Shown here one piece after another: positions 50,509-64,000 of a DNA stretch of 64,000 bases. Below the pieces are notes generated by a model, which was given only the letters and a program-made list of their open reading frames with translations, was not told where the DNA came from and searched no databases. Source of the stretch: Hydrogenothermaceae bacterium (GTDB taxonomy: Bacteria; Aquificota; Aquificia; Aquificales; Hydrogenothermaceae); contig WIAL01000065.1 in NCBI GenBank assembly GCA_015519975.1, forward strand, positions 1 through 64,000, written 5' to 3'. Position numbers and translations under genes: made by a program. Every line of letters starts with the position of its first letter. Positions within the stretch are counted from its first letter, which is position 1.

Positions 50509-52941
50509 ATGGAAAAGAAACTAGTTGTGTGGCTCAAAGAAGTCACAATGGATGATGTTCCACTGGTGGGAGGGAAAAATGCCTCATTAGGTGAAATGAT
50601 GAATGCCCTCTCTTCAAAAGGAGTAAATGTTCCAAACGGTTTTGCTACTACTTCGGAAGCTTATTGGTATTTCCTTGATTACAACAATCTCAGAGAAAAG
50701 ATCAAGGAAGCATTAAAAGATCTTGACGTAAATGATGTTGAAAATCTTCATAAACACGGAGTTAAAGTCAGAAATCTTATCAGAGGAGGGGAATTTCCAC
50801 CTGACCTAAAAGAAAAAATCCTCGAATATTATCACCAGTTAAGTAAAGAATACGGTAAAGAGTATGTTGATGTCGCCGTTCGTTCATCTGCAACTGCAGA
50901 AGACACAGAAGAAGCTTCCTTTGCAGGACAGCAGGAAACTTATCTAAATATCAAAGGTGATGAATCTCTATTAGATGCAATCAAAAGATGTTATGCATCT
51001 CTATTCACAGACAGAGCAATTTCATACAGAGAAACATTCGGATTTGATCATTTTTCTGTAGCACTTTCTGCAACAGTTCAAAAAATGGTTCGTTCGGACA
51101 AAGGTTCCTCAGGAGTAATGTTTACATTGGACACTGAAAGTGGATTTAAAGATGTTGTTCTCGTTACTTCAATATTCGGATTAGGAGAACTTATAGTCGG
51201 TGGTGCCGTTACACCTGATGAATTTTTAGTATTTAAACCTACCCTTGAAAAGGGATATAAAGCAATAATTGAGAAAAAATTAGGACATAAAGATAAAAAA
51301 ATGGTTTACGGAGAAGGAGAGGAAAAAACAAAAATCGTTCCTGTTCCTTTAGAACAGCAAAAACAGTTTTCACTTTCAGATGAAGAAGTTTTAAAACTTG
51401 CAAAATGGGGAATGCTTATTGAAGAGCACTATTCGGATAGAAATGGCAGATGGACACCTATGGATATAGAATGGGCAAAAGATGGAGAACTTAACGAACT
51501 TTTTGTAGTTCAGGCTAGACCTGAAACAGTCCATTCAAGACAGGATAAAACAAAAATAAAAGTTTATAAAATAACAGAACCTTTAGAAGAAAGAAGAAAA
51601 AAAGTTCTTATAACTGGTATAGCAGTAGGAAGCAAAATAGCTTCTGGAAAAGTGAAAATATTGATGTCTCCTGAAGAAGGTGAAAAGTTTGAGCAAGGAG
51701 ATGTATTAGTTACAGATATGACAGACCCAGATTGGGAACCAATTATGAAGAAAGCAGCGGCTATTGTAACAAACAGAGGTGGAAGAACATGCCACGCTGC
51801 AATTGTTGCAAGGGAGCTTGGGGTTCCGGCAGTTGTAGGAACACATAACGCAACGGAAGTTTTAAAAGACGGACAACTTGTAACAGTTTCCTGTGCTGAA
51901 GGGGATACAGGATATGTATATGATGGAAAAATTGCATATGAAGAAGAAGAATTCGACCTTACAAAATTACCTAAAACAAAAACACCTATAATGATGAATA
52001 TTGCCACACCAGAAAGTGCATTTAATTTTTCATTCTTCCCAAATTCAGGAGTAGGTCTTGCAAGGGAAGAGTTTATTATAAACAACTACATAGGAATACA
52101 CCCTAATGCACTTTTAAATTTTGAAAAGATAAAAGAAAAAGACCCACATCTTGCAAGAGAAATAGAAGTAAGAACATTCGGATACGATAGCTGTGTTCAA
52201 TTTTATGTTGATAAACTTTCTTACGGTGTAGCCAAAATCGCTGCTGCATTTTATCCAAAACCTGTAATAGTTAGATTTTCAGACTTTAAATCAAACGAAT
52301 ATGCAAATCTTTTAGGTGGAAAATATTTTGAACCAGAAGAAGAAAATCCAATGCTCGGATGGAGAGGAGCTTCAAGATATTACTCACCACAATTTAAAGA
52401 TGCGTTTGGGCTTGAGTGTAAAGCCATCAAAAAAGTAAGAGAAGAAATGGGACTGGATAATGTAATCACAATGATACCTTTCTGTAGAACTGTAGAAGAA
52501 GGTAAAAAAGTAGAAGAAGTTATGAACGAATATGGTCTTAAAAGAGGAGAAAACGGTCTTCAGGTTTATGTTATGACTGAAATACCTTCAAACGTTTTAC
52601 TTCTAGAAAAATTTGCCCAGTATTTCGACGGATTTTCAATCGGATCAAACGATCTTACACAGCTGACACTTGGGCTTGATAGAGATTCTAACCTTGTGGC
52701 ACATCTGTATGACGAAAGAAATGAAGCTGTCAAAGAAATGGTATCGATGGCAATACATAAGGCTAAAAAAGTAAAAAGAAAAATCGGTATATGCGGACAG
52801 GCACCATCTGATCACCCAGATTTTGCTCAGTTTTTAGTTGAAGAAGGTATAGATACAATCTCCATAAATCCAGATGCAATAATAAAAACAACACTTGCCA
52901 TATATGAGATAGAAAAGAAATTAGGATTGCATAATGATTAA
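50509..52941 (+). CDS. ppsA: Phosphoenolpyruvate synthase
   Basis: 810 aa. Converts pyruvate and ATP to PEP, AMP and phosphate. ATP-binding half VGGKNASLGEM, VRSSATAEDTEEASFAGQQE; phosphohistidine GGRTCHAAIVAREL with His429; PEP/pyruvate barrel with GLDRDSNLVAHLYDERNEAV and GICGQAPSDHP with catalytic Cys762. PPS rather than PPDK judged by the C-terminal barrel and lack of PPDK insertions. First gene of the long operon; 20 nt to the proton ATPase gene. Confidence 0.96.
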   Translation: MEKKLVVWLKEVTMDDVPLVGGKNASLGEMMNALSSKGVNVPNGFATTSEAYWYFLDYNNLREKIKEALKDLDVNDVENLHKHGVKVRNLIRGGEFPPDLKEKILEYYHQLSKEYGKEYVDVAVRSSATAEDTEEASFAGQQETYLNIKGDESLLDAIKRCYASLFTDRAISYRETFGFDHFSVALSATVQKMVRSDKGSSGVMFTLDTESGFKDVVLVTSIFGLGELIVGGAVTPDEFLVFKPTLEKGYKAIIEKKLGHKDKKMVYGEGEEKTKIVPVPLEQQKQFSLSDEEVLKLAKWGMLIEEHYSDRNGRWTPMDIEWAKDGELNELFVVQARPETVHSRQDKTKIKVYKITEPLEERRKKVLITGIAVGSKIASGKVKILMSPEEGEKFEQGDVLVTDMTDPDWEPIMKKAAAIVTNRGGRTCHAAIVARELGVPAVVGTHNATEVLKDGQLVTVSCAEGDTGYVYDGKIAYEEEEFDLTKLPKTKTPIMMNIATPESAFNFSFFPNSGVGLAREEFIINNYIGIHPNALLNFEKIKEKDPHLAREIEVRTFGYDSCVQFYVDKLSYGVAKIAAAFYPKPVIVRFSDFKSNEYANLLGGKYFEPEEENPMLGWRGASRYYSPQFKDAFGLECKAIKKVREEMGLDNVITMIPFCRTVEEGKKVEEVMNEYGLKRGENGLQVYVMTEIPSNVLLLEKFAQYFDGFSIGSNDLTQLTLGLDRDSNLVAHLYDERNEAVKEMVSMAIHKAKKVKRKIGICGQAPSDHPDFAQFLVEEGIDTISINPDAIIKTTLAIYEIEKKLGLHND

Positions 52942-52961
52942 ATAAGATAACGGAGGGGAAA

Positions 52962-55616
52962 ATGGCTGTAGTTGATGAATACAAAAATAAATCAATAGAA
53001 GAAACGTTAGTAGAACTTGGAGTTAATAAAGAAAAAGGCCTCACAGAGGAAGAAGCAAAAGAAAGATTAAAAAAGTACGGACCCAATGAGATTCCCGAGA
53101 AAGAGGAACCACTCTGGCACAGGATATTTCGGCGTTTCTGGGGGCCTATTCCGTGGATGATAGAAATAGCGGCCATCCTCTCTGCATCTGTTCAGAAATG
53201 GGAAGATTTTACAATCATAATGATTCTTCTGTTCGTGAATGCAGGTGTTGATTTCTGGCAGGAGCATAAAGCTCTTTCTGCATTAAAGGTTTTAAAACAG
53301 AAGTTGGCAAGAAAAGCTATAGTCCTCAGAGACGGTGTCTGGAAAGAGATAGATGCAAAATATATTGTTCCAGGGGATATAGTAAAACTCAGGATAGGGG
53401 ATATTATCCCTGCTGATATGAAACTTATAGAAGGTGATTTTATTCTTGTAGATCAGTCAGCCCTGACAGGAGAGTCTCTCCCTGTTACTAAAAAAGCTGG
53501 AGATGTTGCCTATGCAAACTCTATTGTAAAACAGGGTGAAATGATTGCAGTCGTAGTTGCAACTGGACTTAATACATATTTTGGAAAAACGGTTAAACTT
53601 GTAGCTCAGGCAGAGAGAGAACAGCGTTCTCACCTTCAGGAAATGGTTATTAAGGTTGGAAACTTTCTCATTGTAATTACTATATTTCTCGTGGCAATCA
53701 TTATATTAGTTGGAATATCACGGCATGAATCCTATATAGAACTGCTTAGATTCTCCCTTGTATTAACAGTTTCGGCTATTCCAGTTGCACTACCTGCTGT
53801 CCTTACGGTTACAATGGCAATAGGAGCCCTTTCCTTAGCAAGAAAACAGGCTATCGTCAGCAGGCTTGCTTCAATTGAAGAGATGTCTGGAATGGATATT
53901 CTTTGTTCTGATAAAACAGGAACCCTTACAAAAAATCAGATGACAATTTCCATTCCATATACGGTAGATGGTTATAAAACAGAAGATGTGATATTTTATG
54001 CAGCTCTTGCTTCAAAAGAAGAAAATAAAGATCCAATTGAAATCCCAATATTTGACTGGCTAAAAGAACATAATCTTTACGATAAGCTGAAAGAATGGAA
54101 ACAGATTAAATTCATTCCATTTGACCCTGTAAGAAAAAGAACAGAAGCTATCGTAGAACATAATGGAACCCAATTGTTGGTGGCTAAAGGGGCGCCTCAA
54201 GTTATTATTGAAATGTGTGATGATTCAGAATTCGATAAAGAAGTTGTTTATCAAAAAGTAGAAGAGTTTGCACAAAACGGATTCAGAACTTTAGGAGTAG
54301 CATACAAAAAACCTGACGAACCAAAATTTAATTTTGTAGGTCTTATTCCGCTGTTTGATCCGCCCCGGGAAGATTCAAAAGAGGCAGTAGAAGAGGCAAA
54401 AAGACTCGGTGTAGAAGTGAAAATGGTGACAGGTGATAATATCGCTGTTGCCAGATATATAGCCAAGATACTCGGTATCGGAGAAAAGATATACGATATA
54501 AAACAGCTTAGAGGTGAGACTTACGAAGAATACACAGTTTTAGCAGAAGTAATAGCAAAGGCTATTTATCAGAAACTAAGTCCACACGTGACTGAAAAGG
54601 AAGCTGAGAAGTTTGCAGAAGAAATTGCCCAACTGGTAGAACAGGAACTTGAAAGAAGAAAACTACCTAAAGGAATAGTTAAAAGACATGAATCAGAAAT
54701 TATTAAAATTATCGAAGAAGCAAACGGTTTTGCACAGGTATTTCCGGAAGATAAATATTTTATTGTTGATAAACTTCAGAAAGCAGAACATATCGTAGGA
54801 ATGACTGGAGACGGTGTTAACGATGCACCAGCACTTAGAAAAGCCGATTGTGGTATTGCTGTGGCAGGAGCTACTGACGCTGCAAGGGCTGCTGCTGATA
54901 TTGTTCTTCTTGCCCCTGGTCTAAAAGTGATAGTTGATGCAATCAGAATCTCAAGAGAAATCTTCAGAAGAATGGAATCTTACACTATCTACAGAATTGC
55001 AGAGACAATCAGAATAATCCTGTTTATGACCCTTTCCATCGTGATATTTAACTTTTATCCAATCACGGCTCTTATGATTATCCTCTTGGCATTATTAAAC
55101 GATATTCCTATACTTACGATTGCCTATGACAATGAAAAAGCTTCCCCAAAACCTCAAACCTGGGACATGACAGAGATTCTTGTTCTCTCATCCTGGCTTG
55201 GAGTGGCAGGAGTTATTTCTTCATTTACGCTGTATTTCTTACTTGTAGAATACTGGAAACTTCCAATGGATATGATTCAGTCAATTATATTCACAAAACT
55301 AATTGTTGCTGGACATAACACTATTTTTAACACAAGAAGAAAAACATGGTTCTGGATTAAGCCTTGGCCTTCACCTGCTTTATTCTGGGCAACAATAGGA
55401 ACAAGCTTTATTGGAACAGTTATAGCAGTTTATGGATTTGACCTTATTACACCTGTTGGATGGAAATGGGGAATATTTATATGGGGATATGCAATGGTAT
55501 GGTTCCTATTTAACGATGCTGTAAAAGTATTTTTCTTCCACGTTTACAGAAATAAAAGATTTGCTTTTGGAAAATTTATAGGATTTAAGAAAAAAATAAG
55601 ACCTAATGAAATTTAA
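52962..55616 (+). CDS. P3A-type proton-pumping ATPase (first copy)
   Basis: 884 aa, related to fungal/plant plasma-membrane H+-ATPases. Actuator LTGESLPV, phosphorylation motif DKTGTLTKNQ (Asp317), KGAPQVIIE, MVTGDN and GMTGDGVNDAPALRKAD. Helix M6 carries LLALLNDIPIL, the Asp of which matches the proton-binding Asp of P3A pumps, and M2 has LLFVNAGVDFWQEHKA. No autoinhibitory tail. Expels H+ using ATP. GGAGG upstream. A second copy lies at 58092, sharing nearly identical DNA blocks with this one. Confidence 0.95.
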   Translation: MAVVDEYKNKSIEETLVELGVNKEKGLTEEEAKERLKKYGPNEIPEKEEPLWHRIFRRFWGPIPWMIEIAAILSASVQKWEDFTIIMILLFVNAGVDFWQEHKALSALKVLKQKLARKAIVLRDGVWKEIDAKYIVPGDIVKLRIGDIIPADMKLIEGDFILVDQSALTGESLPVTKKAGDVAYANSIVKQGEMIAVVVATGLNTYFGKTVKLVAQAEREQRSHLQEMVIKVGNFLIVITIFLVAIIILVGISRHESYIELLRFSLVLTVSAIPVALPAVLTVTMAIGALSLARKQAIVSRLASIEEMSGMDILCSDKTGTLTKNQMTISIPYTVDGYKTEDVIFYAALASKEENKDPIEIPIFDWLKEHNLYDKLKEWKQIKFIPFDPVRKRTEAIVEHNGTQLLVAKGAPQVIIEMCDDSEFDKEVVYQKVEEFAQNGFRTLGVAYKKPDEPKFNFVGLIPLFDPPREDSKEAVEEAKRLGVEVKMVTGDNIAVARYIAKILGIGEKIYDIKQLRGETYEEYTVLAEVIAKAIYQKLSPHVTEKEAEKFAEEIAQLVEQELERRKLPKGIVKRHESEIIKIIEEANGFAQVFPEDKYFIVDKLQKAEHIVGMTGDGVNDAPALRKADCGIAVAGATDAARAAADIVLLAPGLKVIVDAIRISREIFRRMESYTIYRIAETIRIILFMTLSIVIFNFYPITALMIILLALLNDIPILTIAYDNEKASPKPQTWDMTEILVLSSWLGVAGVISSFTLYFLLVEYWKLPMDMIQSIIFTKLIVAGHNTIFNTRRKTWFWIKPWPSPALFWATIGTSFIGTVIAVYGFDLITPVGWKWGIFIWGYAMVWFLFNDAVKVFFFHVYRNKRFAFGKFIGFKKKIRPNEI
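53097..53137 (+). repeat. 41-nt block identical to 58227-58267 (proton ATPase genes)
   Basis: Exact DNA identity between the two ATPase genes at the helix M1 region (encodes EKEEPLWHRIFRRF), while neighbouring codons differ at many third positions. Paired with 58227-58267. Confidence 0.85.
53481..53578 (+). repeat. 98-nt block almost identical to 58611-58708 (proton ATPase genes)
   Basis: One mismatch in 98 nt with 58611-58708, within the actuator-domain region. Flanking coding sequence is much less similar at DNA level. Confidence 0.85.
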
Positions 55617-55629
55617 GGAGGAGTTTATT

Positions 55630-56544
55630 ATGACTAATTTTGAGATACCTGCGGATGTGCCGGAGGACAAGATTAATGAATATATAAAGAATATGAATGA
55701 AATCACCGGCGGAAGCGGAAGGCTTATGCTTTTCGCTGGTGATCAGAAAGTAGAACATCTGAACGATGACTTTTATGGAGAAGGAATTCCATTAGATGAT
55801 ACTCATCCTGAGCATCTTTTTAGAATAGCCTCTCTTGCGAAAATAGGTGTATTTGCAACTCAGATGGGATTAATAGCAAGATACGGTAGGAAATACCCAA
55901 CAGTTTCTTACCTTGTAAAAATAAACTCAAAAACAAATCTTGTCCCTTATGAAATAAGAGATCCGATAAGCCTTGCTTGGTATTCATTTGAGCAAGTTTT
56001 AGATTTTAGAGAAAAGTCTGGACTGAAAATCTACGGTATCGGTTATACGGTTTATTTAGGAAGTGAGTTTGAACATAAAATGCTGAAACAGGCTGCACAG
56101 CTTATCTACGAAACACATCGACAAGGTATGATTGCTGTTTTATGGATGTATCCTAAAGGAAAAGCCATAAAAGATGAACACGACCCACATCTGATAGCAG
56201 GGGCGGCAGGCGTAGCAAACTGCCTTGGAGCTGATTTTGTAAAAGTGAAAGTTCCTTATAAAGAAGGGCATAAATCTGCAGAGGCTTTGAAAGAGGCTGT
56301 TTTAGCTGCAGGAAATACGGGAATTCTCTGTGAAGGAGGTAAAAAAGAAAATCCTGAACAGTTCTTGACTGAACTTTACGAGCAGATACATATAGGAGGA
56401 GCAAGAGGAAACGGGACAGGAAGAAATATTCATCAAAACACACTTGAAGATGCCGTAAGAATGGCCAACGCAATTTATGCAATAACTGTTGAGAACAAAA
56501 CTGTAGAAAAAGCTTTACAAATTCTAAAAGGAGAACCATTATAA
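55630..56544 (+). CDS. Class I aldolase (archaeal-type FBP aldolase/DeoC-LacD superfamily)
   Basis: 304 aa TIM barrel. RLMLFAGDQKVEHLNDDFYG start, GADFVKVKVPYKEG with candidate Schiff-base Lys205 or Lys207, GGKKENPEQFL and GARGNGTGRNIHQ (phosphate-binding C-terminus), the archaeal-type fructose-bisphosphate aldolase pattern. With PEP synthase it could serve gluconeogenesis. The ATG at 55630 has GGAGG upstream; an upstream ATG (55606) overlaps the ATPase gene and lacks one. 16 nt to the flavoprotein gene. Confidence 0.85.
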   Translation: MTNFEIPADVPEDKINEYIKNMNEITGGSGRLMLFAGDQKVEHLNDDFYGEGIPLDDTHPEHLFRIASLAKIGVFATQMGLIARYGRKYPTVSYLVKINSKTNLVPYEIRDPISLAWYSFEQVLDFREKSGLKIYGIGYTVYLGSEFEHKMLKQAAQLIYETHRQGMIAVLWMYPKGKAIKDEHDPHLIAGAAGVANCLGADFVKVKVPYKEGHKSAEALKEAVLAAGNTGILCEGGKKENPEQFLTELYEQIHIGGARGNGTGRNIHQNTLEDAVRMANAIYAITVENKTVEKALQILKGEPL

Positions 56545-56560
56545 AAAATGGAGGGTCAAA

Positions 56561-57961
56561 ATGGAAAAATATGATGTAGTAGTTATTGGAGCAGGGCCTG
56601 GAGGAACGCCAGCAGCAGAATTTCTGGCTAAAAAAGGGAAAAAGGTTCTATTGATAGACGAAAGAGGAAAGCCTGGAGGAGAATGTTTATTTGAAGGATG
56701 TATTCCATCAAAAATTCTTGAAACTTCTGCAGATTACTTTTATCAGGCAAAAAAATTAGATATTTTCGGAATAGATATCGAAGGGAATATAAAAGTAAAC
56801 TGGAAAAATGTTATAAAAAGAAAAGATAATATTCTTGAAAAAAGAGCAAATGCCGCACTTCAAAGACTCAGCCAGATACCAAACTTAGTTTTTAAAGAAG
56901 GAAAAGGAAGTTTTATTTCTGAGAATCAGATTGAAATAAAAAAATCAGATGGTTCAACAGAGACGGTAGAATTTGAAAAAGCTCTTATTGCAACAGGTTC
57001 TTCTCCTTTTATCCCACCAATTGAAGGGAACGGAGTGGATAAAGTTTGGACAAACAGAACTATATTTGATGTTGAGGATCTTCCAGACTCTATTCTTATT
57101 GTAGGTGGAGGGCCAATAGGAATAGAATTTGGTCAAATGTTTAATAAATTAGGTGTAAAAGTAGTTATTGTTGAGCTTATGGAAAGAATACTTATGCCTG
57201 TAGATGAAGAGTTTGCACTGATTTTACAGGATAAAATTCAAAAAGATGGGATAGAACTTCATCTAAAATCTCTTGTGAAAAGAATTGATTTTGAAAACGA
57301 GAGATTTAAAATATCCTTTGAAAAAGAAGGTAATCTTCAAACGGTAGGAGTAGAAAAAGTTTTAGTCGCCGTTGGAAGAAAACCAAATGTAGAAGGACTT
57401 GATCTTGAGAAAGCTAATGTTGAGTACGACAAAAAAGGTATTATCACTAATCAGTATTATCAAACATCAAATCCAGATATTTACGCAGCAGGAGACGTTA
57501 TAAAAGAGCCAAAATTCCAGCACCTTGCAAGAAATCAGGCATTAGCTGCTGCAAAAAATATGTTAGAAGGAAACAAATATAGTATCGATCTTGATAAACT
57601 ATCGTGGGTTTTATTCTCTGACCCTGAAATAGCTTCTGCCGGACTTACAGAAGAGCAGGCAAAGAATAGAGGAATAGATTACATAGTAGGTAAATACCCT
57701 TATCAGATAGATGCAAGGGCACAGATATTTGATACTGATTTTGGATATTTGAAATATGTTGTAAATAAGCAAACCAATGAAATCATAGGCGTTCATATAA
57801 TGACAGAGGGTTCTTCTTCTCTTGTAGGAGAGGCTTCCGTTATCGTTGCAAATAAGTTAACCTTAGAACAGGTCGCCAACGGAATACATCCTCATCCGAC
57901 CTTAACAGAAAGTTTTGAATTTTTAGCAAAAAATATGCTTATGGAGGGAAAATATGTGTGA
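56561..57961 (+). CDS. Dihydrolipoamide-dehydrogenase-like flavoprotein disulfide reductase
   Basis: 466 aa. FAD motif GAGPGG (10-15), redox-active ECLFEGC (Cys42, Cys47), second Rossmann ILIVGGGPIGIEFGQ, IYAAGDV, and the acid-base pair in HPHPTLTESFEF near the C-terminus, as in Lpd. Could be the E3 of a 2-oxoacid dehydrogenase or another dithiol/mercuric-type reductase; no E1/E2 genes are nearby, so the partner is unknown. It overlaps the 45-aa membrane protein gene by 8 nt. Confidence 0.9.
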   Translation: MEKYDVVVIGAGPGGTPAAEFLAKKGKKVLLIDERGKPGGECLFEGCIPSKILETSADYFYQAKKLDIFGIDIEGNIKVNWKNVIKRKDNILEKRANAALQRLSQIPNLVFKEGKGSFISENQIEIKKSDGSTETVEFEKALIATGSSPFIPPIEGNGVDKVWTNRTIFDVEDLPDSILIVGGGPIGIEFGQMFNKLGVKVVIVELMERILMPVDEEFALILQDKIQKDGIELHLKSLVKRIDFENERFKISFEKEGNLQTVGVEKVLVAVGRKPNVEGLDLEKANVEYDKKGIITNQYYQTSNPDIYAAGDVIKEPKFQHLARNQALAAAKNMLEGNKYSIDLDKLSWVLFSDPEIASAGLTEEQAKNRGIDYIVGKYPYQIDARAQIFDTDFGYLKYVVNKQTNEIIGVHIMTEGSSSLVGEASVIVANKLTLEQVANGIHPHPTLTESFEFLAKNMLMEGKYV

Positions 57962-58091
57962 AAAAGATATTTTATTCTGTATTTTTTATTATTTAGGTTA
58001 TATAGCAATAGGAGGAGCTTTACTTGCAGGCTTTTTTATTTTTTCAGACTGGATGAAAAGAAAAAGACAGGAAGAACAGGAGGGAAAATAA
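57954..58091 (+). CDS. 45-aa single-span membrane protein, candidate proton-ATPase subunit
   Basis: Not recognised; too short for standard gene calls. ATG at 57954 has GGAGG 7-8 nt upstream; TAA at 58089-58091 is followed at once by the ATPase ATG (TAA-ATG). Residues 1-5 MCEKD, then a ~25-residue hydrophobic helix (ILFCIFYYLGYIAIG, then GALLAGFFIF) and a charged tail (DWMKRKRQEEQEGK). The positive tail predicts a cytoplasmic C-terminus. Size and topology resemble small P-type ATPase regulators such as KdpF, Pmp1 or sarcolipin. Coupled translation with one pump but no copy ahead of the first pump suggests a specific partner of ATPase 2 (inference). Confidence 0.7.
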   Translation: MCEKDILFCIFYYLGYIAIGGALLAGFFIFSDWMKRKRQEEQEGK

Positions 58092-60761
58092 ATGACTGTT
58101 ATTGATGAAGTTAAAGATAAACCTGTAGGAGAGGTAATTAAAGAATTTCAAACAGATTTAAAAAAAGGACTGTCTGAAGAAGAAGTAAAAGAACGACTGA
58201 AAAAATACGGACTAAATGAGATACCAGAGAAAGAGGAACCACTCTGGCACAGGATATTTCGGCGTTTTTGGGGCCCTATTCCGTGGATGATTGAGATAGC
58301 AGCTATCCTTTCTGCATCTGTTCAAAAGTGGGAAGATTTTACAATCATAATGATTCTTCTGTTTGTGAATGCAGGCGTTGATTTCTGGCAGGAGCACAAA
58401 GCTCTTTCTGCCCTGAAAGTTTTAAAAGAAAAACTTGCTAAGAAGACGATAGTCCTCAGAGACGGTGTCTGGAAAGAAATAGATGCACGGTATGTTGTTC
58501 CAGGTGATGTGATAAAACTGAAAATAGGAGACATTATTCCTGCTGATGTTAAACTTGCAGAAGGGGATTTTATCCTTGTGGATCAATCTGCCCTTACAGG
58601 TGAGTCTCTTCCTGTTACTAAAAAAGCTGGAGATGTTGCCTATGCAAACTCTATTGTAAAACAGGGAGAAATGATTGCAGTCGTAGTTGCAACTGGACTT
58701 AATACATACTTTGGAAAAACAGTAAAACTTGTAGCAAAAGCGGAGAGAGAGCAACGTTCACACTTTCAAGAGATGGTTATTAAAGTTGGAAACTTTTTAA
58801 TAGTGCTTACACTTATAATTGTTGCTTTGATGATTTTATTTGAGTTAAATCGAGGTGCTGACTGGAAAGAACTGCTAAGATTTTCACTTGTTTTAACGGT
58901 AGCAGCTATTCCTGTTGCACTACCTGCCGTCTTAACTGTTACTATGGCAATAGGAGCTTTATACCTTGCAAAGCGTCAGGTTATTGTAAGTAGACTCGCA
59001 TCAATAGAAGAGTTGGCAGGGGTAGATGTTCTTTGTTCTGATAAAACAGGAACATTAACAAAAAACCAAATGACAACATCAGTTCCATTTACTGTAGATG
59101 GATATAAATCTGAAGATCTTATGTTTTATGCGGCTTTAGCATCAAAAGAAGAAAACAAAGACCCTATTGAAATTCCAATATTTGATTGGCTAAAAGAACA
59201 CAATCTTTATGAAAAAGTAAAAAAATGTAAGCAAAAAAAGTTTATCCCTTTTGACCCTGTAAGAAAAAGAACAGAGGCTTTAGTGGAATGTGATGGTAAA
59301 GAAATAGTAGTTACAAAAGGAGCACCTCAAGTAATTATAGAACTTTGCAATCCATCAGAATTTAATAAAGAAGTAGCTTATCAAAGAGTAGAAGAGTTTG
59401 CTGAAAACGGCTTTAGGACATTAGGAGTTGCATATAAAAAACCTGAAGAAGAAGAGTTTCATTTTGTAGGTCTGATTCCTCTATTTGATCCTCCAAGAGA
59501 AGATTCAAAACCGGCTATTGAGGAAGCTAGAAAATACGGTGTAGAAGTTAAAATGGTAACTGGAGATAATATAGCAGTTGCCAAATATATAGCAAAAATT
59601 TTAGGTATTGGAGATAAGATTTACAGTGCAAGAGAACTTCGTGGACAAACCTATGAAGAGTATGTTGTACTTGCAAAAGTAATAACAAAAGCTCTTTTAG
59701 AAGTTGAAGAAAATCTTTCAGAAGAAGAAGCAGAAAAAAGAGCTCAAAAAATCGCAAAACTTGTGGAAAAAGAGCTTGAAAATACTAAACTTCCTGTTGG
59801 AACAGTAAAAAGACACGAATCAGAAATCATCAAGATCATCGAAGAAGCAAACGGTTTTGCTGAAGTATTCCCTGAAGATAAATATTTTATTGTTGATAAA
59901 CTTCAAAAAGCCGACCATATAGTTGGAATGACAGGTGATGGTGTTAATGACGCACCAGCACTTAGAAAAGCTGATGCAGGAATAGCAGTTTCTAATGCAA
60001 CCGATGCTGCCCGTGCTGCAGCAGACCTTGTTTTACTCGCACCTGGTTTGATGGTTATTGTAAAAGCTATAGAAATAGCCCGTCAGATATTTGGACGAAT
60101 GGAAGCATACACAATATACAGGATTGCTGAAACGATAAGGGTTGTTTTCTTTATGGCTTTATCCATTATGATATTCCAGTTTTACCCTGTTACTGCTTTA
60201 ATGATTATTCTCTTAGCATTGTTAAACGATATACCAATCCTATCTATAGCCTATGACAATGCTAAAATATCCCCAAAACCTGTTCGGTGGGATATGTATG
60301 AGATAAATATAATGGCTTTCTGGCTGGGAGTGGCAGGGGTTATATCTTCATTCACATTATTCTTCTTATTAGTGGAATACTGGAAATTACCTGAAGATTT
60401 AATCCAGTCTATAATCTTTACAAAACTTGTAGTTGCAGGACACGGAACGATTTACAACACCCGTGTTAAAGACTGGTTCTGGAAAAAACCATGGCCTTCA
60501 CCAATTCTTTTTGTAGCGACTTTTGGAACAAGAATTTTAGGAACATTTATAGCTGTTTACGGATTTGGTCTGATAACTCCTGTTGGCTGGGGCTGGGCAT
60601 TGTTTATATGGGGATATGCGATGGTATGGTTCTTCTTTAACGATGCTGTAAAAATGGCTATTTTAAAAATGTACTGGGAAAAGAAATTTTTCTTTGCTCC
60701 AGGGCATTTTACGTGGTTAAAGAAAGAAATGGGTGAAAAAGTAGAACAAGGACATAGTTAA
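58092..60761 (+). CDS. P3A-type proton-pumping ATPase (second copy)
   Basis: 889 aa, closely related to the pump at 52962 along its length. All motifs are intact: LTGESLPV, DKTGTLTKNQ (Asp317), KGAPQVIIE, GMTGDGVNDAPAL, M6 LLALLNDIPIL with the proton-site Asp. Differences concentrate in the extreme N-terminus, the nucleotide domain surface, and the C-terminal tail (EKKFFFAPGHFTWL). Two active-looking paralogues imply a heteromeric or conditionally expressed pump. ATG directly after the 45-aa gene; TTG of the NRAMP gene directly after its stop. Confidence 0.95.
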   Translation: MTVIDEVKDKPVGEVIKEFQTDLKKGLSEEEVKERLKKYGLNEIPEKEEPLWHRIFRRFWGPIPWMIEIAAILSASVQKWEDFTIIMILLFVNAGVDFWQEHKALSALKVLKEKLAKKTIVLRDGVWKEIDARYVVPGDVIKLKIGDIIPADVKLAEGDFILVDQSALTGESLPVTKKAGDVAYANSIVKQGEMIAVVVATGLNTYFGKTVKLVAKAEREQRSHFQEMVIKVGNFLIVLTLIIVALMILFELNRGADWKELLRFSLVLTVAAIPVALPAVLTVTMAIGALYLAKRQVIVSRLASIEELAGVDVLCSDKTGTLTKNQMTTSVPFTVDGYKSEDLMFYAALASKEENKDPIEIPIFDWLKEHNLYEKVKKCKQKKFIPFDPVRKRTEALVECDGKEIVVTKGAPQVIIELCNPSEFNKEVAYQRVEEFAENGFRTLGVAYKKPEEEEFHFVGLIPLFDPPREDSKPAIEEARKYGVEVKMVTGDNIAVAKYIAKILGIGDKIYSARELRGQTYEEYVVLAKVITKALLEVEENLSEEEAEKRAQKIAKLVEKELENTKLPVGTVKRHESEIIKIIEEANGFAEVFPEDKYFIVDKLQKADHIVGMTGDGVNDAPALRKADAGIAVSNATDAARAAADLVLLAPGLMVIVKAIEIARQIFGRMEAYTIYRIAETIRVVFFMALSIMIFQFYPVTALMIILLALLNDIPILSIAYDNAKISPKPVRWDMYEINIMAFWLGVAGVISSFTLFFLLVEYWKLPEDLIQSIIFTKLVVAGHGTIYNTRVKDWFWKKPWPSPILFVATFGTRILGTFIAVYGFGLITPVGWGWALFIWGYAMVWFFFNDAVKMAILKMYWEKKFFFAPGHFTWLKKEMGEKVEQGHS
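58227..58267 (+). repeat. 41-nt block identical to 53097-53137 (proton ATPase genes)
   Basis: Partner of 53097-53137; encodes EKEEPLWHRIFRRF with identical codons. Confidence 0.85.
58611..58708 (+). repeat. 98-nt block almost identical to 53481-53578 (proton ATPase genes)
   Basis: Partner of 53481-53578, one mismatch, between stretches of lower DNA similarity. Confidence 0.85.
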
Positions 60762-61982
60762 TTGAAAGAAAGTAAAAAAAGGTTAAGAAATTTAAAAAAG
60801 CTTGGACCTGGAATAATAACTGGCGGGGCTGGGGACGATCCTGCCGGTATTCTTACATATACTATTGTTGGAGCTACAACAGGATTTTCCCAGTTGTGGT
60901 TAATGCTTTTGTCAACTCCTATGATGATTGCCGTTCAAGATACAGCAGCAAAATTAGCCCTTGTTACAGGGAAAAGTCTGCCGGAAATACTTAATGCTTA
61001 TTATTCAAGAAAACTTACATATTTTATTGTCTTAAGTCTTGCGGTAGCTAATATTTTTACAATAGGAGCAGATTTGGAAGCAATTGCAGCTATTCTTGAG
61101 ATAATAACAGGGATTAAGGCAATTTACTTATTAATTCCTATTACATTTTTAATTGCTTATTTAGTCATATTTAAAGCTTATAAAACAGTTAAAAAAGTTT
61201 TAATAGTCCTTACATCTTTACTTGCTGTTTATATTATTTCTGCTATTCTTGCTAAGCCAGATTTAAAACAGATGATTCTTGACACCTTTATTCCACAAAT
61301 AAAACCTGATTTAGCTTTTATTCTTGCTGCACTTGGACTTTTGGGTACCACTATTTCTCCTTATATGATTTTCTGGCAGGCATCTGAAGAGAAAGAAGAA
61401 CATGCAACAGTTTCACAGGCAAAAGTTATGGAAGCAGATACAGCCCTTGGAATGATTTATTCTAATGTTATTGCTTACGCAATTATTGTATCTTCTGCAG
61501 TTATACTATTTGGACATAAAGAAATTCAGACTATAGCAGATGCAGCACTTGCACTTAAGCCTGCTGCTGGAGAATATGCATTTTTATTATTTAGTATAGG
61601 AGTTATAGTATCTGGATTCCTTGCAATACCTGTTTTAGCTGGTTCTACAGCTTATGCTGTAGCAGATACATTTGGATGGCGTGAGGGAATGGATAACAAA
61701 GTAAGTGATGCAAAAGGATTTTATTTAGTATTTTTAGGTTCTTTGTTTGTGGGAGATTTGATTAATTTATCTGGTATATCTACAGTTGATGCTCTTTATT
61801 ACAGCCAAATTTTTGATGGAACATTATTGCCTATATTAAGTGGATTATTATTTGTTTTGGGAAATAATAAAAAAATATTAGGAAAATACATAAATAAAAA
61901 GTTTAATAATGTATTTTTAATACTGACATTTATAGTCTCTATTATTGCCACAATTTATATGTTTTATACCTTATTGACTTAA
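60762..61982 (+). CDS. NRAMP-family transporter with non-canonical metal site (NRMT-like)
   Basis: 406 aa, about 11 helices. LGPGIITGGAGDDPAGILTY matches helix 1 of NRAMP, but the DPGN motif reads DPAG (Asp26, Gly29 in place of Asn), and helix 6, normally MPHN, reads SPYM in GTTISPYMIFWQAS. Loss of the metal-selective Met and Asn is reported for NRAMP-related Mg2+ transporters, so Mg2+ or another hard cation is more likely than Mn2+/Fe2+ (inference from memory). TTG start directly after the ATPase stop, with a weak AGGA. Confidence 0.85.
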   Translation: MKESKKRLRNLKKLGPGIITGGAGDDPAGILTYTIVGATTGFSQLWLMLLSTPMMIAVQDTAAKLALVTGKSLPEILNAYYSRKLTYFIVLSLAVANIFTIGADLEAIAAILEIITGIKAIYLLIPITFLIAYLVIFKAYKTVKKVLIVLTSLLAVYIISAILAKPDLKQMILDTFIPQIKPDLAFILAALGLLGTTISPYMIFWQASEEKEEHATVSQAKVMEADTALGMIYSNVIAYAIIVSSAVILFGHKEIQTIADAALALKPAAGEYAFLLFSIGVIVSGFLAIPVLAGSTAYAVADTFGWREGMDNKVSDAKGFYLVFLGSLFVGDLINLSGISTVDALYYSQIFDGTLLPILSGLLFVLGNNKKILGKYINKKFNNVFLILTFIVSIIATIYMFYTLLT

Positions 61983-61999
61983 TTAATTGGAGGTAAAGT

Positions 62000-63283
62000 T
62001 TGACAGAAGCCCAGCTTGGAGAACTGCTTTTAATATTAGCTCTTTTATTCGGTCTCAGTTATGCCCTTGGGGGCCTTCTCCTAAAAGCAAGAATTCCTGT
62101 TATCTTAGGTGCCCTTTTTGTTGGAATGGGAATTCATTACACAACCATTGTTGACAGGATCCTTACAAACGGGGCAACAGCAACAGGATTTAATTTCCTT
62201 GCAGAACTTGGAGTTTTATTCCTGCTATTTTATATTGGTCTTCAGATAGACTTTTCTGAAATGAAAAAGCTCAGTAAAGATATAATCTGGGCTACTGTTT
62301 TAAATACAGCATTTCCTTTTTTGTTCGGTGTTCTTGTTATGCTTCTTTTAGGGTATGGATGGCTGATTGCCTTTGTTATCGGGCTAACAAGGATGCCAAC
62401 GGCTGAAGCTGTTATTGTTCCGATTTTAGATGAGTTTAATCTGATAAAAACCAGAGTTGGTAGTTTTATTGTAGGGGCAGGAGTCCTTGATGATGTGATT
62501 GAGGTTTTCCTTGTGGCTGTTGTTTCCATATGGATAGCACAGGCAACTGGAACTCACATGAGCGTTGAAAGGGAAATTGGGGATGTTGTTTTAGGAACGG
62601 TTATTTTCATAATAGCAACCTTTGTTGTTTATAAATGGATTATAAAGCCTATTTCACACTGGCTAAAGCCAAAACCTGCAAATCTTGTTCTTCTCAGTAT
62701 GTTTATTCTTCTCGCCTTCGGTGGATTTTCCCAATATGTGGGACTTGGACTTGTTGTCGGTGCAATCGTTGCAGGAATAATAATGAGACCTGCTTTAAAT
62801 GCAGCAAAAAATATAGGCGAAGAAACTGTTCATGTTTTAAGGGCTATAAGTTATGGATTTTTCGGTGTGGTTTTCTTTTTATGGATTGGTCTCAGTGTTG
62901 ATTTAACAGGATTATTTGAACATCCAGAACTTGCGATACTTCTTTTCCTTGCTGCGTTTGTAGGTAAGTTAGTAGGCATATTTTTAATGGTTCCTATGAA
63001 AAAAATAACTGTAAAAGAAGCATGGACAATCGGCATTGGACTTAATGCAAGACTTACAACCGAAATAATAGTGGCCAAACTTCTTTACGATGCCCATCTG
63101 ATAGATGTTGAACTGTTTACTGCTTTAGTGGCAGCTTCTTCTGTTTCTACAGTTGTTGTTCCAGTTTTATTCACTCTCTTTGTAAGGATGTGGGGCAAAG
63201 AACTTCAAGCTCCACCTGTTCTTGAAGTTAGTGAGGAACACATAAAAACCAAAAAACTTCATGATTTTAAAGGTGAAAGCTGA
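62000..63283 (+). CDS. CPA2-family cation:proton antiporter (Kef/NapA-like)
   Basis: 427 aa, about 12-13 helices, no RCK/TrkA-N domain. GLTRMPTAEAVIVPILDEF unwound helix, then GAGVLDDVIEVFLVAVV with the ion-site Asp164-Asp165, a second-half motif GLSVDLTGLF and LNARLTTEIIVAKLLYDAHLI. Exchanges Na+ or K+ for H+. TTG start preceded by GGAGG. Its stop overlaps the next gene's ATG (TGATG). Coupling of a proton-driven antiporter to two proton pumps fits pH and Na+/K+ homeostasis. Confidence 0.9.
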   Translation: MTEAQLGELLLILALLFGLSYALGGLLLKARIPVILGALFVGMGIHYTTIVDRILTNGATATGFNFLAELGVLFLLFYIGLQIDFSEMKKLSKDIIWATVLNTAFPFLFGVLVMLLLGYGWLIAFVIGLTRMPTAEAVIVPILDEFNLIKTRVGSFIVGAGVLDDVIEVFLVAVVSIWIAQATGTHMSVEREIGDVVLGTVIFIIATFVVYKWIIKPISHWLKPKPANLVLLSMFILLAFGGFSQYVGLGLVVGAIVAGIIMRPALNAAKNIGEETVHVLRAISYGFFGVVFFLWIGLSVDLTGLFEHPELAILLFLAAFVGKLVGIFLMVPMKKITVKEAWTIGIGLNARLTTEIIVAKLLYDAHLIDVELFTALVAASSVSTVVVPVLFTLFVRMWGKELQAPPVLEVSEEHIKTKKLHDFKGES

Positions 63284-64000
63284 TGACTGAGAAAAAGACC
63301 TTAGAAAATAAATACGACTGGGCAGCTTTAAAAGTAGAAGATGTAATAAAAGCTTTAAAAACAGATCAAGAAAAAGGTCTATCATCTAAAGAAGCAGAAA
63401 AAAGATTAAAAAAATATGGACTAAATCAATTACAAAAATATAAAAAAGCCACGTGGTATGAAGTTTTAGCCAGACAGTTTATAGATGTTTTGATTATTAT
63501 TCTTTTAATTGCTGCTGGAATTTCTATTTTGATTGGTGAAATTGGAGATGCTCTTACGATTCTTGCCATCGTTATATTAAATGGAATACTTGGTTTCGTT
63601 CAGGAATGGAAAGCAGAAAAAGCAATAGAAGCCCTTCAAAAAATGCTTTCCCCAAAGGCAAAGGTTATTCGGGATGGAAAACAGATAGAAATTGATTCTA
63701 AATATATCGTTCCTGGGGATATTGTTGTTCTCCAGATAGGAGATAAAGTCCCTGCAGATTTACGGCTTATTGAAGCCATTAACCTGAAAGCAGATGAATC
63801 ACCGCTTACAGGAGAATCTGTCCCTGTTCATAAATCCGTTGAACCAGTGAAACCTGGAACTTCCCTTGCAGCAAAATCTTCTATGGCCTGGATGGGAACA
63901 AGTATAGTTAATGGAGTCGGAAAAGGTGTTGTAGTCGCAACAGGAATGGAAACAGAATTCGGAAAAATAGCAAAACTTACCCAAACGGTAGAAACAAAAC
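63283..64000 (+). CDS. P2A-type (Ca2+-like) cation ATPase, partial at right edge
   Basis: N-terminal 239 residues of an open frame that runs off the window. EDVIKALKTDQEKGLSSKEA is the cation-ATPase N-domain; helices M1-M2 follow (DVLIIILLIAAGISILIGE; TILAIVILNGILGFVQEWKA), then the actuator domain VIRDGKQIEIDSKYIVPGDI, GDKVPADLRLIEA and SPLTGESVPVHK. FVQEWKAEKAIEALQKM and the TGES context match SERCA/PMR1-type pumps rather than P3A. Ca2+ is the usual ion; the phosphorylation site is beyond the edge. One-nt overlap with the antiporter gene. Confidence 0.88.
   Translation, partial: MTEKKTLENKYDWAALKVEDVIKALKTDQEKGLSSKEAEKRLKKYGLNQLQKYKKATWYEVLARQFIDVLIIILLIAAGISILIGEIGDALTILAIVILNGILGFVQEWKAEKAIEALQKMLSPKAKVIRDGKQIEIDSKYIVPGDIVVLQIGDKVPADLRLIEAINLKADESPLTGESVPVHKSVEPVKPGTSLAAKSSMAWMGTSIVNGVGKGVVVATGMETEFGKIAKLTQTVETK

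Follow-up and report, generated by a model that had tools for sequence, protein, structure and literature searches.

The product of a 45-codon gene in the 64,000-nucleotide stretch of DNA analysed here (the window), MCEKDILFCIFYYLGYIAIGGALLAGFFIFSDWMKRKRQEEQEGK, probably serves one clade of bacterial P3A ATPases as a dedicated, single-span accessory subunit, a proposal built on comparative sequence analysis. The gene, hereafter the micro-gene, stands directly in front of one of the two P3A ATPase genes of the window (ATPase B), and it is the constancy of this pairing across genomes that makes a dedicated accessory subunit the probable function of the peptide. The second P3A pump of the window (ATPase A) belongs to a sister clade and has no micro-gene in front of it. 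The positions of these features are collected in Table 1.

Table 1. Features of the micro-gene locus and of the two P3A ATPase genes in the window.
Feature	Position	Strand	Evidence
Micro-gene: 45-aa single-span membrane protein, proposed P3A ATPase accessory subunit	57954..58091	+	sequence, homologues, pN/pS, AlphaFold
Ribosome-binding site of the micro-gene, GGAGG	57943..57947	+	read in sequence
Shine-Dalgarno-like AGGAGGG of ATPase B, within the 3' end of the micro-gene	58078..58084	+	read in sequence
ATPase B: P3A-type (plasma-membrane proton-efflux) P-type ATPase with P-domain insert, 889 aa	58092..60761	+	TIGR01647 E 2.6e-288
ATPase A: second P3A ATPase, sister clade, no micro-gene in front	52962..55616	+	TIGR01647 E 6.8e-298; tree; upstream region
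Dihydrolipoyl-dehydrogenase-like flavoprotein, upstream neighbour, 8-nt overlap with the micro-gene	56561..57961	+	profile match; elsewhere inconstant

The micro-gene is a real protein gene under purifying selection. Its 45-codon frame is intact from the ATG at 57954 to the TAA at 58089-58091, six bases separate the GGAGG from the start codon, and a G-rich stretch resembling a Shine-Dalgarno sequence precedes the gene in all 13 orthologues first found. These signals had been named in the original prediction, made from the letters of the window, and on re-reading they proved exact. The same prediction had set conservation of the frame as the test on which the gene would fall; in 10 orthologues no stop interrupts the frame, pN/pS amounts to 0.18 for this frame but to 1.34 and 1.16 for the two remaining sense frames, and the variable columns at codon positions 1, 2 and 3 number 14, 10 and 32, with third positions varying most. 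Since the stop of the micro-gene abuts the start of ATPase B (TAAATG, with the ATG at 58092) and the Shine-Dalgarno-like motif of the ATPase lies within the micro-ORF, translation of the two genes is likely to be coupled. The 8-nt overlap with the preceding flavoprotein gene, also pointed out beforehand as a sign of insertion in the operon, does exist, but the flavoprotein gene is missing from this position in many relatives; because the upstream gene varies among genomes, the overlap is incidental, and it was rejected as a meaningful part of the system.

A search for homologues, a check that had been suggested for Aquificota genomes upstream of P3A ATPases, detected the micro-gene in 13 of 61 genomes (its own included) at E<=6.8e-9, all of them Hydrogenothermaceae, and then in further families. 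When 136 Aquificota genomes were searched with a profile, one Aquificaceae-type genus and the Desulfurobacteriaceae joined the list; among the latter, all sampled members having this pump carry the micro-gene. Eight relatives were obtained in a pattern scan of 84,980 species genomes, namely seven Hydrogenothermaceae/Persephonella records and Thermodesulfobacterium hydrogeniphilum; the pattern requires FC[IV]FYY[LF]G, so that divergent micro-genes, such as those of the Desulfurobacteriaceae, are missed by it. A second genome from the phylum of T. hydrogeniphilum also encodes the micro-gene, and in both of these genomes outside the Aquificota it is again paired with the ATPase. Weak genome matches lacking an adjoining ATPase (L014-L020, L048-L051 and L133-L150) were set aside as chance, judging by their score and position. 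Profile searches against Pfam, NCBIfam, PHROG and the PDB returned no family match for the peptide, the Pfam matches to LapA, melittin and THEG4 being far under cut-off.

At every locus except one, the micro-gene lies directly upstream of an insert-bearing P3A ATPase, and at all complete loci its stop codon keeps close to the ATPase start, from 24 nt ahead of it to 20 nt beyond it. A tree was built from 34 insert-type P3A ATPases, six classic P3A ATPases serving as the outgroup (quick search, no bootstrap); in it a single clade with an SH-aLRT of 99 holds all 26 micro-gene-bearing ATPases, and none of the 8 insert-type ATPases outside this clade is preceded by the micro-gene. These eight comprise four PpdK-linked paralogues, ATPase A included, and four mesophilic pumps of the other phylum, in whose upstream DNA a reading of three frames showed no such small ORF in front of the pump. 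One gain on the ATPase tree would suffice to account for this distribution. The genes found before the pair vary (flavoprotein, DeoC/LacD-type aldolase, PpdK, histidine kinase, GroEL), and some pairs stand alone, with no same-strand gene upstream and opposite-strand neighbours only; since the upstream neighbours change and the pair does not, the constant unit consists of the micro-gene and the ATPase. The coupling to a P3A ATPase is thus stronger than originally claimed, with 26 of 26 cases in one clade, spread over several lineages and several operon settings. The exception is the MAG G015 (L027:3-2561), in which ATPase B has been deleted and an intact micro-gene is found behind the end of ATPase A, after which come the first 13 codons of ATPase B, joined to an amino-acid permease gene. 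The peptide may work with ATPase A as well, or the loss of ATPase B may be recent; as the micro-gene outlives ATPase B here, ATPase B may not be its sole partner.

The peptide alone was predicted by AlphaFold to form one helix spanning residues 3-44 (pLDDT 88.5), with a 17-residue hydropathy maximum of 2.1; having one transmembrane helix in fewer than 60 residues, it classes as a single-span protein. The helix is followed by DWMKRKR, in agreement with the single helix and charged tail first described. Among 25 micro-protein sequences D5, F8 and G15 are invariant and M1, F11 and G26 nearly so, and conservation over residues 5-31 is periodic at 103-104 degrees per residue (p=2e-4 versus shuffles), which places F8, F11, G15, A18, I19, A22, G26 and I29 on one conserved face of the helix. 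A single conserved face rich in small residues is to be expected when a helix packs against a larger membrane protein. Most of the conserved residues lie in the N-terminal two thirds of the peptide, far from the ATPase junction. The charge pattern of the window peptide, with an acidic N-terminus and the basic residues after the helix, suggests an N-out, C-in topology, which is less clear in the Desulfurobacteriaceae. Two cysteines, C2 and C9, stand two helix turns apart in all 16 sequences from outside the Desulfurobacteriaceae (alignment A2), that is, in Hydrogenothermaceae, the Aquificaceae genus and Thermodesulfobacterium; the Desulfurobacteriaceae have neither.

The partner pump is a P3A ATPase, as had been proposed: ATPase B scores 958.4 bits against TIGR01647 (cut-off 615.5) and 367 bits against the Mg2+ model TIGR01524, which is under the cut-off of 610.75. 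Its top PDB match is AHA2 (5ksd), and in the alignment with this structure the arginine of TM5 (tiRvvf/tiRivf) and the aspartate of TM6 (llnD/ilnD) of AHA2 are kept, consistent with proton transport by ATPase B. In both P3A ATPases of the window the P-domain contains an insert of about 50 residues, visible as a GDN to VFPE spacing of 105-107 as against 50-57 in classic P3A pumps. Relatives in the Aquificota share the insert, as do a few genomes of the Thermodesulfobacterium phylum. At ten positions all ATPases of the micro-gene clade have the same residue and those outside it a different one. Five of the ten (736, 741, 743, 860 and 865) map to the cytoplasmic ends of TM7 and TM10, on a helix assignment drawn from the AHA2 alignment and general knowledge of P-type folds. 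These ends make up 21 of 506 eligible positions, and the enrichment (p=1.7e-5) is post hoc; since the region was defined after the positions had been seen, the p-value is optimistic and the observation is a lead and not a result. It gives a weak hint that the peptide might dock at these cytoplasmic ends, the region where the beta subunit binds in Na,K-ATPase. AlphaFold modelling of a read-through fusion of micro-ORF and ATPase B, with the TAA as Q (13 sequences), gave a pLDDT of 36, too low for an interface to be read from it.

Based on these features, we hypothesize that the peptide would be made just ahead of the pump, its synthesis being coupled to that of ATPase B, and would insert as one helix, the N-terminus probably outside and the lysine/arginine-rich tail in the cytoplasm. 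The face formed by D5, F8, F11/Y12, G15, I19, A22, G26 and I29 would pack on the membrane domain of the pump, and the bound peptide would stabilise or tune it, the simplest form of this being a constant subunit comparable to KdpF in KdpFABC. That the peptide and the pump make up an obligate two-subunit P3A pump in one thermophile clade, with the 45-aa subunit bound close to where TM7 and TM10 end on the cytoplasmic side, is a more specific proposal that we regard as rather unlikely. Several observations count against an accessory subunit: in G015 the micro-gene survives the deletion of ATPase B, ATPase A and the mesophilic insert-type pumps do without a micro-gene of their own, and the sequence of the peptide would also permit self-association.

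The main rival is a conditional regulator of the same pump which, in the manner of MgtS, MgtR, MgtU or sarcolipin, would control proteolysis by FtsH or affinity. It is a sub-case of action on the same ATPase, and so overlaps with an accessory subunit; we consider it a serious possibility, if on balance an improbable one. The best-known small partners of bacterial P3-type pumps do affect FtsH turnover (PMC10710835), the peptide is a single helix with a charged tail, and the paired C2 and C9 could allow redox control. However, the Desulfurobacteriaceae lack these cysteines, and the gene directly precedes that of the pump, the stop and start codons almost touching or overlapping, which suggests fixed co-production.

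The TAAATG junction and the Shine-Dalgarno-like motif of the ATPase within the micro-ORF would equally be expected of a translational leader, a short ORF that only couples translation into the ATPase gene and whose product is dispensable. Such a leader is very unlikely, given that selection acts on the amino acids (pN/pS 0.18), and mostly on those of the N-terminal two thirds, that the distance across the junction ranges from -24 to +20 nt, and that ATPase A and the mesophilic homologues do without any leader. A membrane peptide with a role of its own, either self-assembling or the partner of another membrane protein and carried along with the pump gene, would explain why the micro-gene persists in G015 after the loss of ATPase B, and the A22xxxG26 small-residue spacing on the conserved face could drive self-association; nevertheless, the linkage of the micro-gene to a single ATPase clade is perfect in different families and phyla and with changing neighbours, which makes this improbable. 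A chance ORF without a product is refuted by the conservation, the pN/pS and the clade linkage, and has practically no probability left. An accessory subunit dedicated to the pump is accordingly retained as the probable reading.

In the window, the micro-gene is part of an ion-transport island (50509-64000, continued in L169:1-5687) whose genes lie on a single strand with short gaps, in the order PpdK, ATPase A, DeoC/LacD aldolase, Lpd-like flavoprotein, micro-gene, ATPase B and Nramp, followed by a Na/H exchanger, a further P-type cation ATPase (P2A-like by eye) and an amino-acid permease. The five other genomes of the genus to which the window belongs (G001-G005), some of them incomplete, gave no P3A ATPase match at E<=1e-100; the distribution of the island in the genus is thus uneven, perhaps as a result of acquisition or of repeated loss. 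In one Aquificaceae genus, four genomes (L055, L064, L066 and L083) have a different 44-aa single-span ORF (MGISEIVG...) whose end lies 24-26 nt ahead of the classic P3A ATPase; it shows weak similarity to DUF3149 (E 0.002, below cut-off) and may be another, independent case of a small protein partnering a P3A pump. Among about 30 P3A loci of the other phylum, an approximate count since it covers those resolved by a start-finder that missed some, the only plausible small hydrophobic ORF at the pump start is that of L125, which is unrelated to the micro-gene: it encodes 83 histidine-rich residues with one hydrophobic stretch and ends 3 nt before the ATPase start.

According to a 2023 review, the P3A ATPase is a single membrane-embedded polypeptide, and the transport function of the prokaryotic P3A pumps is still to be determined (PMC10654040). 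The authors of the MgtA structure ask whether more P-type ATPases have small partner proteins (PMC10925321). The micro-gene offers a clean case, being a gene of fewer than 50 codons with one putative gain on the ATPase tree, and the sister paralogue ATPase A, which lacks it in the same gene cluster, constitutes a built-in control. These organisms would also supply thermostable material for structural work on a P3A pump together with a small subunit. Within the open PMC literature the novelty is confined to bacterial P3A pumps, the class named in the original statement; for the bacterial P3B pumps MgtA and MgtB, the small partners MgtS, MgtR and MgtU are already known.

Those three proteins, of 28-31 aa, act on the P3B Mg2+ pumps MgtA and MgtB via FtsH turnover (PMC10710835). 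The MgtA-MgtS complex stays together in the mild detergent GDN (PMC10925321). All three share with the peptide, in the role proposed for it here, the action of a small protein on a bacterial P3-type ATPase, and differ from it in their P3B partner, whereas here a gene with no model match is fixed upstream in one P3A clade. In yeast, Pmp1 and Pmp2 are single-span peptides of about 40 residues that act on the P3A proton pump Pma1. They are like the micro-gene product in size, single span and pump class, and unlike it in being eukaryotic and encoded by genes unlinked to the pump. Sarcolipin, a type of peptide that regulates SERCA, is likewise a single-span partner packing on an ATPase membrane domain, as are phospholamban, FXYD and the beta subunit of the P2 pumps; these, in contrast, are eukaryotic and either conditional regulators or glycosylated subunits, and the profile search of PDB chains found no relative of the peptide. 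KdpF (about 30 aa), reported or supposed to stabilise the KdpFABC complex (PMC10925321, PMC3618439), is single-span and co-transcribed with its pump genes, as is proposed for the micro-gene product. It belongs, however, to a P1A multi-subunit pump with a channel subunit, KdpA, that is absent here: no kdpA or kdpC lies beside the micro-gene or ATPase B, the partner is a TIGR01647 P3A ATPase, and no KdpF match to the peptide was obtained up to E 10 in either Pfam or NCBIfam. On these comparisons the peptide appears unrelated in sequence to both KdpF and MgtS, and it resembles them in its position and in its predicted shape.
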